Assembly (NCBI GenBank): GCA_003221895.1
Contig: QHUJ01000114.1
Coordinates: 1-64,000 of the forward strand
Direction of reading: 5' to 3'
Source of the DNA: Gemmatimonadota bacterium
GTDB lineage: Bacteria > Gemmatimonadota > Gemmatimonadetes > Gemmatimonadales > GWC2-71-9
Length of the DNA: 64,000 nt
Shown here: one piece after another, positions 32,286 through 38,029 of the stretch
Layout: every line of letters starts with the position of its first letter
Position numbering within the stretch: position 1 is the stretch's first letter
Notes under the pieces: model-generated
What the model saw: only the letters and a program-made list of their open reading frames with translations
What the model was told of the DNA's origin: nothing
Database searches by the model: none
Translations under genes and position numbers: made by a program

Positions 32286-33340
32286 GGATCATCGTCGTGG
32301 GGGGCGGGGTTGCGGGACTCGCGGCGGCGTGGGAGCTGGAGCGCGCGGGCCGAAGCGAGGTGACGATCCTCGAAAGCGAGCGTAGGCCGGGTGGAGTGAT
32401 CGTCACCGAACAGGTCGACGGATTTGTGGTCGAGGGCGGCCCTGATGGTTTTCTGGCCGGCGAGCCTGAGCTTCCGGCCCTGGCTCAAGAGCTCGGCATC
32501 GGTGACCGCGTCATCGAGCAGCTGGAACGCGGCACCTCGCTGTGGTCCGGAGGGAAGTTTCAACCGATCGATGCCGGTCTTGCCGCCACACTGCTGGGAA
32601 TCGATGCGAAAGCGTCGGAGGTGGCGGCGGGGTTTCGTAGCTTCGCGGGCGGGATGTGCGAGCCGGTCCTGGCAGTGGCGCAGCGTCTCGCCGGCTCATT
32701 GCGCCTCGCGCAGGGAGTTGCCGGCATCGCGCGCGAGGGAAAGCGGTGGCGGCTCGCCATTACGGGCGGATCGGCGCATGACGCCGATGGTATCGTGCTG
32801 GCGCTGCCGGCGTACACCGCGGGCCGGCTGCTCGAAAGCGTCGGGGTGAGGGGAGGGCGCGAGCTCGCCGAGATCGTCTACGCGCCGAGTGTCACGGTGT
32901 CGCTCGCGTACCGCCGAGAACAGATCGGGCGGCCGCTCGCCGGCGCGGGATTTGTCGTCGAATCGCCCTCACCTGACCAGATCCGCGCCTGCACCTACGC
33001 TTCACACAAGTTTTCGGGTCGCGCTCCGGACGGCCATGCGCTGCTGCGGGCCTACCTCGGACCGACGGACGATCACCCGGCCAAGCTCGCGCGCGACCAG
33101 CTCGCTGCGATCCTGGATATTCATGGCGAGCCGTTGTGGTCGAGGACCTTCTACTGGAATCGCGGCTTGCCTCGATATCGTTCTCATCATGCCGAGCGTG
33201 TCGCCGGGATCCGGCAGCGCCTCGAGCGTCTGCCACCGCTCGCGATCGCCGGCGCGGGCTATGACGGCGCCGGCGTGTCGGCGTGCGTGCGTTCAGGGCG
33301 CGAGGCCGGCCGCCTCATCGCACAGCGGACGGCTCGGTGA
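32282..33340 (+). CDS. hemG: Protoporphyrinogen/coproporphyrinogen oxidase (HemG/HemY/CgoX family), unusually short
   Basis: RIIVVGGGVAGLAAAWELERAG, GFVVEGGPDGFLAG; about 352 aa; GTG overlaps hemH stop. Confidence 0.85.
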   Translation: MRIIVVGGGVAGLAAAWELERAGRSEVTILESERRPGGVIVTEQVDGFVVEGGPDGFLAGEPELPALAQELGIGDRVIEQLERGTSLWSGGKFQPIDAGLAATLLGIDAKASEVAAGFRSFAGGMCEPVLAVAQRLAGSLRLAQGVAGIAREGKRWRLAITGGSAHDADGIVLALPAYTAGRLLESVGVRGGRELAEIVYAPSVTVSLAYRREQIGRPLAGAGFVVESPSPDQIRACTYASHKFSGRAPDGHALLRAYLGPTDDHPAKLARDQLAAILDIHGEPLWSRTFYWNRGLPRYRSHHAERVAGIRQRLERLPPLAIAGAGYDGAGVSACVRSGREAGRLIAQRTAR

Positions 33341-34358
33341 CGAGCGGCATCACTTCTTCGGCAAAGCGCTCCATCTCCTCCAATTGCGGGCTGAACTGAA
33401 GCAGCAATAGATCCACGCCGGCCTGCTCGAAGGCGCGGATGCGGTCCGCGATCTGCTCCGGTGTGCCGGTGAGCCCGGCCTTCAACCCACGATTCGACAC
33501 CGAATAGTCTTCGAGGCTCACACGCTGCTCGAGCTGCGTGTTCGCGAGCCACTGCTCGTAGTTCGCATATCCGGCCGCGTTCTGGCGGACGTCGGTGATC
33601 CGCTCGATTTCGCGCTGCGCCGCGGTCTCGGTCGCGCGGCAGACGACATAGCCGGCGACGCCATAGACCATGGGAGCAAGGCCATTCGCGTCGCGCAGTG
33701 ATTGCATGTCGTGGACCTTGGCGGCGATGCGTTCGGGCGGGTCGCCGTGCATCAGATACCCGTCGCACGAGCGCGCGATCAGCGCCTTTGCGGCAGCCGA
33801 CTCGCCCCCTGCGTAGAGGGTTGGGCGCGGCTGCCGCACCGGCTTCGGCTCGAGAATCGCGTTCTCCACCCGGTAATACTTCCCTGCAAAGCTGAACCGG
33901 CGCTGCGACCAGAGGCCATCCACGACGGCGAGCCACTCGGCCGTGCGGGCGTAGCGGGCATCGTGAGTGTCGAAGTCCACGCCGTACTGCTTCGCCTCCT
34001 CCGCCCACCACGACGACACGACATTGAGCGACAATCGACCGCCCGAGATGTGGTCGATGTTCGCCGCCTGTTTGGCGAGCAGCGCCGGCGGATGGAACGT
34101 CGGCCGGACCGCGACCATCAACTCGAGCCGCTCCGTCACGGCGGCGAGCGCCGCCGCCGTCGACCAGGCATCCAGCGCCGGCGCGTCGGGTCCTTTGATG
34201 TCGTTGAGATTCAGCTCGGCAATCAGCGTGAGATCGAATCCCACGCGCTCGCTCGCTCGCGCCAGGCGTCGCACGTACGACCACTCCGCTTCCATGCGCT
34301 CGTCTTCGACGTTGCGCAGCCACCCGCCGAATACCGGCAACCAATACCCGAAGCGCAT
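33315..34358 (-). CDS. LLM-class flavin-dependent monooxygenase, SsuD/SfnG-like
   Basis: MRFGYWLPVFGG, HISGGRLSLNVVSSWWAEEAKQYG, EWLAVVDGLWSQRRFSFAGKYYRVENAILEPKPVRQPRPTLYAGG. Confidence 0.9.
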   Translation of the reverse strand: MRFGYWLPVFGGWLRNVEDERMEAEWSYVRRLARASERVGFDLTLIAELNLNDIKGPDAPALDAWSTAAALAAVTERLELMVAVRPTFHPPALLAKQAANIDHISGGRLSLNVVSSWWAEEAKQYGVDFDTHDARYARTAEWLAVVDGLWSQRRFSFAGKYYRVENAILEPKPVRQPRPTLYAGGESAAAKALIARSCDGYLMHGDPPERIAAKVHDMQSLRDANGLAPMVYGVAGYVVCRATETAAQREIERITDVRQNAAGYANYEQWLANTQLEQRVSLEDYSVSNRGLKAGLTGTPEQIADRIRAFEQAGVDLLLLQFSPQLEEMERFAEEVMPLVTEPSAVR

Positions 34359-35296
34359 CAGCGCGCCTCCTGGACGAGAAAGTCAGCCAGGCGCGCGAAC
34401 GGATCGAATCCGACGACCCGTGGTGCGTCGGCCACGAAGTTGGAAAGAGCGTTGATGTCGTAGTAGTAGAGCCGGCCGTCGCGCGCATCGATCGCGTACT
34501 CGATGCCGCCGACTTCGATGCCGCAGGCGCTTGCGATCTGCTCGACTTGCCGAGCCACCTGAGGCGGCGGCTCGTAGCCTTCCACCCGCAGCCCATTGCG
34601 CGGCGCATCGACGGGGCAGGCGCTGCGCACCAGCTCAGCACCGCCGGTCGTCTGGCACACGTCAGCCGGACAAAGGTTGAACGTCTCGCCGGAAGAGTAG
34701 ACTCTGATCGCGTACAGGAACTTGCCCCCCAGGACTTCTACCCGCGTGATGCGTCCTTCTTCGGACGGAATGAACTCCTGAACCAGCGCCGTCTGATCGG
34801 GACCCAGCTCCAGCCCGTCGTTGGCCGCCGCAATGGCGAGGTCCGCCGGCGTGTCGAAGCGTCGTACGCCCGCGCCGCTGCCGCCGACGTTCGGCTTCAC
34901 GACGACGGGGAACCGCAACTCGCTCGCAGCGCCCGGCGCATCAGCCGGATTGTTGATGATGCGCGTAGGCGGATAGGGAAGCCCCAACGCCCGCAGCACC
35001 GACAGCTGCAGTGCCTTGGAGGTCTCAGCATGGAAAGCTCTGGTGCCGTTGACGACTCGCACGCCGTGACGTTCCAGATGAGCCAGGAAGTGATGGGTGT
35101 AGAACACGGCGTGCCCGTGCCCACGCTGCCAGGCGGACGGGCTCATGCGGTTGAAGACGAGGTCAAATGGCGGCCGATCGCCCGGATCGTAGCGGTGATT
35201 TTCCGCGTGCAGGAGCGTGTAGCGCGTACCGCGCCGGTCCAGCTCGGCAAAGAGCGGCGTGAACCAGTGTGGGTGCTCGTAGTAGATCCCGATCAT
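34358..35296 (-). CDS. RimK-like ATP-grasp protein
   Basis: RFPVVVKPNVGGSGAGVRRFDTP, LVQEFIPSEEGRITRVEVLGGKFLYAIRVYS, YYYDINALSNFV. Confidence 0.88.
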   Translation of the reverse strand: MIGIYYEHPHWFTPLFAELDRRGTRYTLLHAENHRYDPGDRPPFDLVFNRMSPSAWQRGHGHAVFYTHHFLAHLERHGVRVVNGTRAFHAETSKALQLSVLRALGLPYPPTRIINNPADAPGAASELRFPVVVKPNVGGSGAGVRRFDTPADLAIAAANDGLELGPDQTALVQEFIPSEEGRITRVEVLGGKFLYAIRVYSSGETFNLCPADVCQTTGGAELVRSACPVDAPRNGLRVEGYEPPPQVARQVEQIASACGIEVGGIEYAIDARDGRLYYYDINALSNFVADAPRVVGFDPFARLADFLVQEAR

Positions 35297-35820
35297 GTGG
35301 TGACCCCCGACGCGAGAGCGGCCGCCTCATTCGCCGCGCGTTCGATGCGCTCCACGAGCGGCGGCTCGGGCACGCCGTTGCGGAATTGCGCGTCGGTGCC
35401 GTACACACCATTCGCCACAACCAGCGCACCCACACTCGCGAGCAGCGGCCTGAGCCCGTGATCCACCGCGAGCAGGTGCCCCGCCCCGCCGCCGGTGGCA
35501 ATCGGAATCGCGACCTTGCCCGCGAGTGCATCCTGCGGCAGCAGGTCGAAGAAGACCTTGAGCAAGCCGCTGTACGTCGCGCGATAGATCGGCGTGCTCA
35601 CGACGATGACTCCCGCCTCGCTGACGGCGCGGAGCGCGGCAGTAACCTCGCGGTCTTCGCGCCGGCCCAACAAACCGTCTGCTGGGAGCTGAGCCAGGTC
35701 GATGAGTCGAGTTGGTCCCGAGCCTTGCCGCTCGAGTGCCGCCAGCGCCAGCTCGAGCAGCGCGCGCGAGCGTGACACCGGTGCGGGACTGCCGGACAGA
35801 CCTACAACTGAAGCACTCAC
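35293..35820 (-). CDS. ssuE: NADPH-dependent FMN reductase, SsuE-like
   Basis: VVGLSGSPAPVSRSRALLELAL, VVSTPIYRATYSGLLKVFFDLLPQDALAGKVAIPIATGGGAGHLLAVDHGLRPLLASV. Confidence 0.92.
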   Translation of the reverse strand: MSASVVGLSGSPAPVSRSRALLELALAALERQGSGPTRLIDLAQLPADGLLGRREDREVTAALRAVSEAGVIVVSTPIYRATYSGLLKVFFDLLPQDALAGKVAIPIATGGGAGHLLAVDHGLRPLLASVGALVVANGVYGTDAQFRNGVPEPPLVERIERAANEAAALASGVTT

Positions 35821-35840
35821 CGTTTCCTCCTGAAGAAGAG

Positions 35841-35876
35841 ATCGGCCGCGACTCTGATCGGAGAGTCGCGGCCGAT
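35841..35876 (-). promoter_or_regulatory. Perfect 15-bp inverted repeat hairpin in ssuE leader (possible attenuator)
   Basis: ATCGGCCGCGACTCT / AGAGTCGCGGCCGAT, 6-nt loop, followed on the minus strand by CTCTTCTTC then AGGAGG SD. Confidence 0.75.
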
Positions 35877-35912
35877 TCGTGCTGCGTCTGGGGCGGGAGC
35901 CCCGTCTACTTC

Positions 35913-36008
35913 CTACCCCGCATTATGACGCGCCGCGATCGTCCGCCCTCCCGAACAACACATCGGGCAGGGACAGAGACAGCGCATCGCCATGTAGGTG
36001 GGCTTCAT
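35913..36008 (-). CDS. 31-aa Cys-rich leader peptide candidate MKPTYMAMRCLCPCPMCCSGGRTIAARHNAG
   Basis: Sits between tkt and ssuE; five Cys in nine residues, four as TGT codons. Confidence 0.6.
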   Translation of the reverse strand: MKPTYMAMRCLCPCPMCCSGGRTIAARHNAG

Positions 36009-36019
36009 TACCCAAAAAA

Positions 36020-38029
36020 CTAGCGGAGATTTCGCGCGGCGTCTACCACGCGATCGACAGTCAGGCCGAGCTCCTGATACACACGCTGGTAGGGCGCCGA
36101 CGCGCCGAACCGTTCCAATCCGATAACGACGCCGTTGTCGCCCCCCCCCACCCACCGGTACCAGGATTGGGGCGAGGCAGCCTCGACCGCGATGCGCGGC
36201 ACATCCGGCGGAAGCACGCTATCGCGGTAGCCCTGCGGCTGCCGAGCGAAGAACTCGAGGCACGGCATCGAGACGGCCACCGGCCGCCGGCCATCAGCCT
36301 TCAGCCTTTCGTAGGCGCCCAGCACCAAATCGACCTCCGAGCCGCTCGCCATGAGCAGCACATCAGGATTATCAGCCCCCGCCAGCACGTAGCCACCCTT
36401 GTGAAGCCCTGTCGCGGCGGAGTATTTGGCCCGGTCCACAACGGCGACCTTCTGCCGCGTCAGCACCAGCGCTACCGGCCCATTCTTGTGGAGAATGGCG
36501 GCGCGCCACGCCTCAACGACTTCCGTCGGATCCGAGGGCCGGATCACCGTCATGTTGGGAATGGCTCGCAGCGCGGCGAGCTGCTCGATCGGCTGATGCG
36601 TGGGACCGTCTTCGCCCAGGCCGATCGAGTCGTGGGTGAATACGTAGATCGGCTTCAGATGCGTCAGCGCGGCCAGCCGAATCGACGGACGCATGTAATC
36701 GGAAAAGATCAGGAATGTCCCGCCGATCGGGATGAAGCCGCGATGCAGCGCGATGCCGTTGAGCGCCGCGCCCATCGCGTGCTCGCGGATCCCGAAGTGA
36801 AAATTGCGGCCCGCATGCGAGCCCGCGGCGAACACACCGCCGCTCTTGATCTCGGTGTTGTTCGATCCCGTGAGATCGGCCGAGCCGCCGATCAGCTCCG
36901 GCAGCTTGGCCGCAATCGCGTTCAGCACTTTGCCTGAGGCGGCCCTGGTAGCTTGCGCATCTTTCGGGCCGAAGACCGGCAGCGCCGCATCCCACCCTTC
37001 CGACAACGTGCCGGCCAGACGCCGATCCAGCTCGCCGGCAAGGTCTTTGTGCGCGGTGCGGTAGGGATCCCATTTCTTTTTCCAGTCCGCTTCGAGCCGT
37101 GCCCCGCGATCCTTGGCGCGACGCCACACGTCCAGCGCCTCGTCCGGCACGTAGAACGGCTCGAGCGACGGCCAGCCAAGGTTCTGCTTCGTCGCCCGGA
37201 CTTCGTCGGCGCCCAGCGGGGCGCCATGAGCCTCAGCGGTGTCCTGTTTGTTGGGACTGCCCCACGCGATGTGCGTTCGCACGATGATGAGCGATGGCCG
37301 ATCGGTGGCCCGCTTCGCCGCCGTTATCGCCGCATCGATTGCCTCGAGATCGTTCCCATCCGCGATGCGCTGAACGTGCCAGCCGTACGCCTCGAACCGC
37401 TTCGCCGTGTCGTCCGAGAAGGCGAGGTCGGTCGAACCGTCGATCGTGATGCGGTTGTCGTCGTAAAACCCGATCAGCTTGCCGAGCTTGAGATGTCCCG
37501 CAAGCGAGCAGGCCTCGTGTGAGATGCCCTCCATCAGGTCGCCATCAGAGGCGAGGAAGTACGTGTGGTGATCGACGATCTCATGGCCAGGGCGGTTGAA
37601 CAGCGACGCGAGCTCGGCTTCGGCGATCGCCATCCCGAGCGCGTTGCCGACGCCCTGGCCAAGTGGGCCCGTCGTGGCTTCGACGCCTGGCGTGACGCCG
37701 TGCTCGGAGTGCCCCGGCGTGCGGCTCGACCATTGGCGAAACTGCTTGATGTCGTCGAGCGTGAGATCGTACCCGGTGAGGTAGAGCACGCTGTACAGCA
37801 GCATGCACGCATGCCCCGCCGAGAGCACGAAACGGTCCCGATCGAGCCAGTCGGGATTCGCGGGATTGTATTTGAGATGTCGCTGCCACAGGACGTACGC
37901 GAGCGGGGCCAGCGCCATCGCGGTGCCCGCGTGGCCGGAGTCGGCCTTCTGCACCGCGTCCATGGCGAGCGTGCGGATGGTGTTGATGCAGAGTTGATCG
38001 AGCTCGACGCGAGCGACGGTTTCGGTCAT
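36020..38029 (-). CDS. tkt: Transketolase
   Basis: [79 protein letters not shown]. Confidence 0.98.

Follow-up and report, generated by a model that had tools for sequence, protein, structure and literature searches.

The locus studied here raises the question of why a very short, cysteine-rich ORF should stand between a transketolase gene (tkt) and an operon with similarity to sulfonate-utilization proteins. The stretch of DNA that was analysed, hereafter the window, comprises 64,000 nt of a Gemmatimonadota bacterium (GWC2-71-9; GCA_003221895.1, contig QHUJ01000114.1, positions 1-64,000, forward strand). The order of genes on its minus strand is transketolase, leader, ssuE-like FMN reductase, ATP-grasp ligase and LLM-class monooxygenase, and the features discussed below are collected in Table 1. 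A first-pass annotation, made from the letters of the sequence, had proposed that the short ORF acts as a Cys-dependent attenuator controlling the use of sulfonates or sulfones. The first part of this proposal stood: the Cys codons, the terminator and the complementarity of the antiterminator arm to it are kept within the genus and recur across lineages, and the same device fronts sulfate-assimilation operons. The second part was weakened, as described below.

Table 1. Features of the leader region and of the downstream operon in the window
Feature	Position	Strand	Remarks
Putative -35 element TAGACG, within the tkt 3' end	36040..36045	-	17-nt spacer to the -10
Putative -10 element TAGTTT, overlapping the transketolase stop codon	36017..36022	-	8-9 nt upstream of the leader start codon
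Cys leader ORF, 31 codons + stop	35913..36008	-	ORF kept in 7 same-genus genomes with Cys-rich core
Cys codon cluster, 5 Cys in 9 codons, proposed starvation sensor	35955..35981	-	
Putative antiterminator arm core TCGCGGC, inside the leader ORF past the Cys codons	35932..35938	-	Complementary to 35866-35872
Small hairpin GGGGC-TCCC-GCCCC, between leader stop and terminator	35890..35903	-	Read from sequence
Intrinsic terminator-like hairpin, 15 bp, putative attenuator terminator	35841..35876	-	Conserved in 8/8 genus members
T-tract region CTCTTCTTCA	35831..35840	-	Weak here; most relatives have CTTTTT
ssuE-like FMN reductase	35293..35820	-	FMN_red PF03358; NCBIfam SsuE TIGR03567 best
RimK/LysX-fold ATP-grasp ligase, conserved core of the operon	34358..35296	-	Family matches and AlphaFold model
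LLM-class flavin monooxygenase, SfnG/SsuD-like	33315..34358	-	PF00296

The leader ORF and its terminator-like hairpin in the window

The leader ORF starts with an ATG at 36008, ends with a TAG at 35915-35913 (minus strand) and has the product MKPTYMAMRCLCPCPMCCSGGRTIAARHNAG. The five clustered Cys codons, which the first-pass annotation had placed correctly to the base, read TGT TGT TGC TGT TGT (35981-35955, minus strand). The predominance of TGT, which had been called unexpected, was borne out by comparison with the neighbouring CDSs: TGT accounts for 4 of the 5 leader Cys codons vs 4 of 26 in these genes (TGC:TGT 22:4; Fisher p=0.0098). A scan of the mini-ORF with NCBIfam gave no match, and a scan of the window and ten related loci with Rfam gave no gathering-level match to riboswitches or T-boxes.

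The terminator-like hairpin is made of ATCGGCCGCGACTCT (35876-35862), the loop CCGATC and AGAGTCGCGGCCGAT (35855-35841), with 15 perfect pairs, and it lies just before the AGGAGG (35831-35826) preceding the GTG start codon of ssuE (35820); its earlier description as a perfect 15-bp hairpin located immediately before the ssuE Shine-Dalgarno sequence was right at all positions. The complementarity that had been pointed out between TCGCGGC (35938-35932), at the end of the leader ORF, and GCCGCGA (35872-35866), in the 5' arm of the hairpin, was likewise confirmed. Small hairpins, whose sequence is not conserved, are found in several relatives at the place matching that of the small hairpin in Table 1. 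A candidate protector helix, CGGGGAGC:GCTCCCCG, was dropped by eye, the downstream segment mostly folding on itself in the alignment of relatives.

Conservation of the leader across genomes

The operon was found in seven genomes of the same genus, with 84-86% identity for the ATP-grasp protein. In all seven, the leader is in frame with a Cys-rich core (e.g. MKPITMSMCCHLCCPMCCTGSGRSGASACGMT) and is followed by a hairpin of 15-16 bp and, in most, by CTTTTT. The leader ORF and hairpin of the window are thus, on this conservation, not a product of chance, and the retention in relatives that the first-pass annotation had suggested looking for is what was observed.

Genome contigs were then scanned for the operon, yielding 71 loci, mostly from Gemmatimonadota and Acidobacteriota, with some from Bacteroidota and others. 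Upstream sequence was sufficient at 66 of these loci, and a Cys leader was called where a short ORF encoding four or more Cys in 10 aa lay within 450 nt upstream. By this criterion, 31 of the 66 have a leader, while dinucleotide shuffles predict 0.3 and the reverse strand has 1; these counts do not represent independent events, since the loci share ancestry. Among the 31 loci are Gemmatimonadota, Acidobacteriota and two Bacteroidota; at about half of the 66 orthologous operons no Cys leader is recognisable within 450 nt. The Cys ORF is usually separated from the first gene by an intrinsic terminator. Between lineages only the runs of Cys are shared (MMMCCCCMC, MAMCMCMCC, MAMCCCMCMC, GCCRSPLMCC, LCSCTCAMPMCCC), and their number and spacing vary, from single or double Cys in L009, L097 and L105 to runs of 4-7 elsewhere.

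Predicted pairing between the leader and its terminator

In 45 leaders, the region lying between the last Cys codon of the main cluster and the stop codon was compared with the 5' arm of the terminator. The duplex between the two was more stable than those obtained with shuffled leader stretches (p<0.05) in 23 of the 45, using an automatic arm procedure that handled L075, L097 and L105 poorly. Terminators were also swapped among 13 lineages with largely unrelated leaders, and the leaders preferred their own terminator (p=5e-5, the floor for 20,000 permutations), which ranked first in 7 of 13 lineages and in the top two in 10, and was not the best match in 6. Pairings could also be read directly from the sequence, such as GAGCGGCC with GGCCGCTC in Acidobacteriota, GGAGGA..GGGAGCGT with ACGCCTCC..CCTCC in the L080 type and GCGGCCG with CGGCCGC in L089. 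Because the segment past the Cys codons favours pairing with the 5' arm of the terminator from its own lineage, it fits the role of an antiterminator arm. When folding was modelled with a ribosome footprint, the terminator 5' arm paired to the leader with a median of 0.73 for a ribosome stalled at the first Cys codon and of 0.19 for one placed at the stop codon. Pairing exceeded 0.5 in 34 of 42 leaders with the stalled ribosome vs 16 of 42 with the ribosome at the stop, and L051, L068, L069, L091 and L134 hardly change between the two modelled states.

Putative promoter and start of the leader transcript

The leader promoter appears to be embedded in the end of the transketolase gene (36017-36045). 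In the window its -35 element matches the consensus weakly. The layout, with a 17-nt spacer and 8-9 nt to the leader ATG, is shared in the genus: most of the relatives have TTGCCG, TTGCAC or TTGCAG as -35 element, and the -10 element is TAGGTT, TAGCTT or TAGTTT at the same position in 8/8 genus members. Leaders from the rest of the Gemmatimonadota have TTGACN. In most Gemmatimonadota leaders the sigma70-like -10 is 6-10 nt from the leader start, several of them having TTGACA and TACTAT. In leaders of Acidobacteria for which a promoter was called, this distance is mostly 11-29 nt. A gap of 6-10 nt between the -10 and the start codon suggests that the leader mRNA is probably leaderless in the window and in most Gemmatimonadota, with the start codon at or near the 5' end.

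Other genes preceded by the device

We searched the phylum for PF01507 (APS/PAPS reductase) and inspected the upstream regions of 30 loci. A Cys leader followed by a terminator precedes cysH at L131, L138 and L143, a cysC-cysH-sat operon at L134, L135, L137 and L139, and a gene for a TauE/SafE-type permease at L130, with divergent copies in L134 and L135; gene names other than cysH correspond to our reading of the translations. On the reverse strand of L134 and L135, near forward positions 500-530, the second, divergent Cys leader has its own promoter and hairpin, stands before the TauE/SafE-type permease gene and faces away from the cysC-cysH-sat operon. The genes cysK and cysE were rejected as members of the regulon: among 45 cysK/cysE loci, Cys-rich ORFs were in no clear excess, occurring at 5 loci on the gene strand vs 4 on the opposite strand, and the cysK of the window genome has no Cys-rich ORF upstream.

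Three relatives from the Bacteroidota have a SAM riboswitch (RF00162) and, immediately after it, a poly-Cys ORF, both upstream of the ATP-grasp/LLM genes; matches to RF00162 are confined to Bacteroidota loci. The presence of this riboswitch is an independent sign that the ATP-grasp/LLM pair has a role in sulfur amino-acid metabolism. The aptamer and ORF are found at L081:4512-4622, L084:4475-4575 and L094:4467-4565 (Nafulsella, Salegentibacter, Salinimicrobium), with ORF products containing ..SCCCCCCC, ..DFCCCCC and ..SCCCWH, and the scan found no terminator at these three poly-Cys ORFs. The Bacteroidota loci are possibly under the control of two signals, SAM and Cys-tRNA.

Proteins encoded by the operon and sulfur metabolism

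The ATP-grasp/LLM pair is the usual core of the operon across phyla, ssuE being added in some lineages. The ssuE-like protein scores 148.6 bits against TIGR03567, below the cutoff of 164. The LLM protein is nearest to the SfnG and SsuD models, both under their curated cutoffs (255 bits vs 383 for SfnG), and its closest solved chains are 3rao, 8vw6 (named alkanesulfonate monooxygenase) and 8t0u (dimethylsulfone monooxygenase). The AlphaFold model of the ATP-grasp protein has a mean pLDDT of 86.5, and its best PDB folds (LysX/ArgX, PsnB, Ddl and RimK) are all ligases. In 26 homologues of this protein, Cys209 and Cys214 are invariant and Cys227 is nearly so; these residues lie in or adjoin a stretch of the model with low confidence (214-232) and possibly constitute a metal or thiol-substrate site.

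To what extent could such an operon use sulfonates or sulfones? Neither sulfite reductase (PF01077) nor ATP sulfurylase (PF01747) was matched in ten genomes of the genus (G000-G009), several of which are incomplete assemblies and five at least 90% complete, while control genomes matched; APS/PAPS reductase (PF01507) had no match at E<=1e-20 in the three genus members listed. From these gene contents, the genus seems unable to assimilate sulfate. With none of the three enzymes detectable in the genomes searched, the sulfite-releasing use of sulfonates or sulfones that had been proposed for the operon becomes doubtful: if sulfite cannot be reduced, its release by an SsuD- or SfnG-like enzyme would not feed cysteine synthesis.

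Other flavin monooxygenases are known that free a thiol from S-substituted cysteines, as in the dealkylation by CmoO/CmoJ (PMC10863075) and in the breakdown of S-(2-succino)cysteine by the yxe operon (PMC9706529). By analogy with these systems, we infer that thiol-releasing organosulfur salvage would fit the operon better than sulfite-releasing chemistry, and ssuE/ATP-grasp/LLM is probably an organosulfur salvage operon. A more specific proposal, to which we give somewhat less than even odds, is that the ATP-grasp/LLM pair is a cysteine-supply pathway which would cleave thioether or sulfoxide organosulfur compounds to a reduced thiol and replace sulfate assimilation in the genus, with the Cys attenuator (in some Bacteroidota, a SAM riboswitch and a poly-Cys ORF) marking the pair across phyla.

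Proposed mechanism and alternative explanations

At the sequence level, the elements that characterize leader-peptide attenuators were all found, namely a Cys-enriched ORF, an intrinsic terminator and a predicted antiterminator pairing that excludes it. In addition, the cysH, cysC, sat and TauE-type permease operons that bear the device acquire or make the regulating amino acid. We thus propose, with a probability of about 85%, that the leader is a ribosome-mediated transcription attenuator reading charged tRNA-Cys. Leader translation, stalling, termination, readthrough and the response to Cys, as well as the substrate of the operon, are what we infer from sequence comparison and folding models. 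The promoter at the end of tkt would start the transcript, with the first codon at about its 5' end. When Cys-tRNA is ample, the ribosome would pass the Cys codons and reach the stop codon, disturbing or covering the antiterminator arm, and the terminator would form before ssuE. Under a shortage of Cys-tRNA, the ribosome would stall on the Cys codons and leave the downstream arm free; this arm could pair with the nascent 5' arm of the terminator, and RNA polymerase would read into the ssuE, ATP-grasp and LLM monooxygenase genes. Most likely, the device turns on sulfur-scavenging genes under cysteine shortage in soil bacteria of several phyla.

The same arrangement could be read differently. 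A short Cys-rich peptide adjoining a RimK/PsnB-fold ATP-grasp ligase and a flavin monooxygenase recalls a RiPP precursor that would be matured by the ATP-grasp, LLM and FMN reductase enzymes, the hairpin merely lowering enzyme expression, and RiPP clusters can have terminators between precursor and enzyme genes. The device also precedes cysH, cysC-cysH-sat and TauE-permease genes, though, with no ATP-grasp gene evident beside the leader, which makes a Cys switch far likelier than a peptide natural product made by an ATP-grasp enzyme. Moreover, conservation of the peptide is restricted to the Cys codons and the part encoding the antiterminator, and a precursor would not be expected to match the terminator of its own lineage by complementarity, so that we regard this explanation as very improbable. 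We would say the same of the hairpin being the transketolase terminator only, with an incidental mini-ORF and an ssuE operon controlled otherwise. The hairpin indeed follows tkt directly, so that it would end the tkt transcript, and probably it also does so, but Cys leaders with terminators are present too in lineages whose upstream regions showed no tkt, and both the Cys codons and the complementarity between arm and terminator would be left unexplained.

An unlikely explanation as well, if a little less so than these two, is that the nascent Cys-rich peptide senses a metal or the thiol/oxidative state and arrests the ribosome by its own chemistry rather than by lack of Cys-tRNA, as has been reported for copper-responsive uORFs of Bordetella. 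The Cys motifs resemble CxxC/CC metal sites and the downstream genes encode redox enzymes; against this, the spacing and number of the Cys vary freely between lineages, the controlled genes, including cysH/cysC/sat, serve sulfur acquisition, and the operon of the Bacteroidota relatives is also under a SAM riboswitch.

Relation to known cysteine leaders

The attenuator proposed here shares with the classical trp, his and leu attenuators the regulatory codons and the antiterminator/terminator switch, and differs from them by the amino acid, the probable leaderless start and the phyla. A similar layout is that of the uORFC-8-2 motif found before cysS in Rhodobacterales, for which Cys-tRNA attenuation was proposed and which comprises a tandem-Cys uORF, stems and an intrinsic terminator (PMC8632094). 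This motif resembles our leader in its Cys-codon uORF followed by an intrinsic terminator, a likeness of layout, but it belongs to Alphaproteobacteria, controls a cysteinyl-tRNA synthetase and has two Cys codons, whereas the present leaders have up to 7 Cys, are probably leaderless and precede sulfur-acquisition genes. In Actinobacteria, Cys leader peptides with a Cys run near the stop codon and without terminator were predicted before cys/cbs operons, those of mycobacteria having no conserved terminator hairpins (Seliverstov et al. 2005, PMC1262725). They share with ours the runs of Cys codons before sulfur genes, and differ by having the Cys run next to the stop codon, where the present leaders have an antiterminator arm in between. 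In an experimental case, polycysteine leaderless short ORFs of mycobacteria are reported to attenuate a downstream operon in response to cysteine (Canestrari et al. 2020, cited in PMC13236596); the poly-Cys ORF is common to both systems, while ours has a strong intrinsic terminator and an antiterminator arm.

The leader-peptide systems named in a survey of 2010 were from Proteobacteria and Actinobacteria, to which it added only its own hisS case from Firmicutes (PMC2965389). In open-licence PMC papers we found no description of a leader peptide or attenuator in Gemmatimonadetes, of a Cys attenuator in Acidobacteria or of the ATP-grasp/LLM/SAM-riboswitch combination. What is new relative to known Cys leaders is the phylum, the gene targets and a probable leaderless start combined with an intrinsic terminator.

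Taken together, our results extend cysteine leader-peptide attenuation, as proposed here, to Gemmatimonadota and Acidobacteriota. Since sulfate-assimilation genes share the switch, an ATP-grasp/LLM operon that had been unannotated is linked by it to the supply of cysteine, which offers a direct handle for finding the substrate of this enzyme pair in soil bacteria that are apparently unable to use sulfate.
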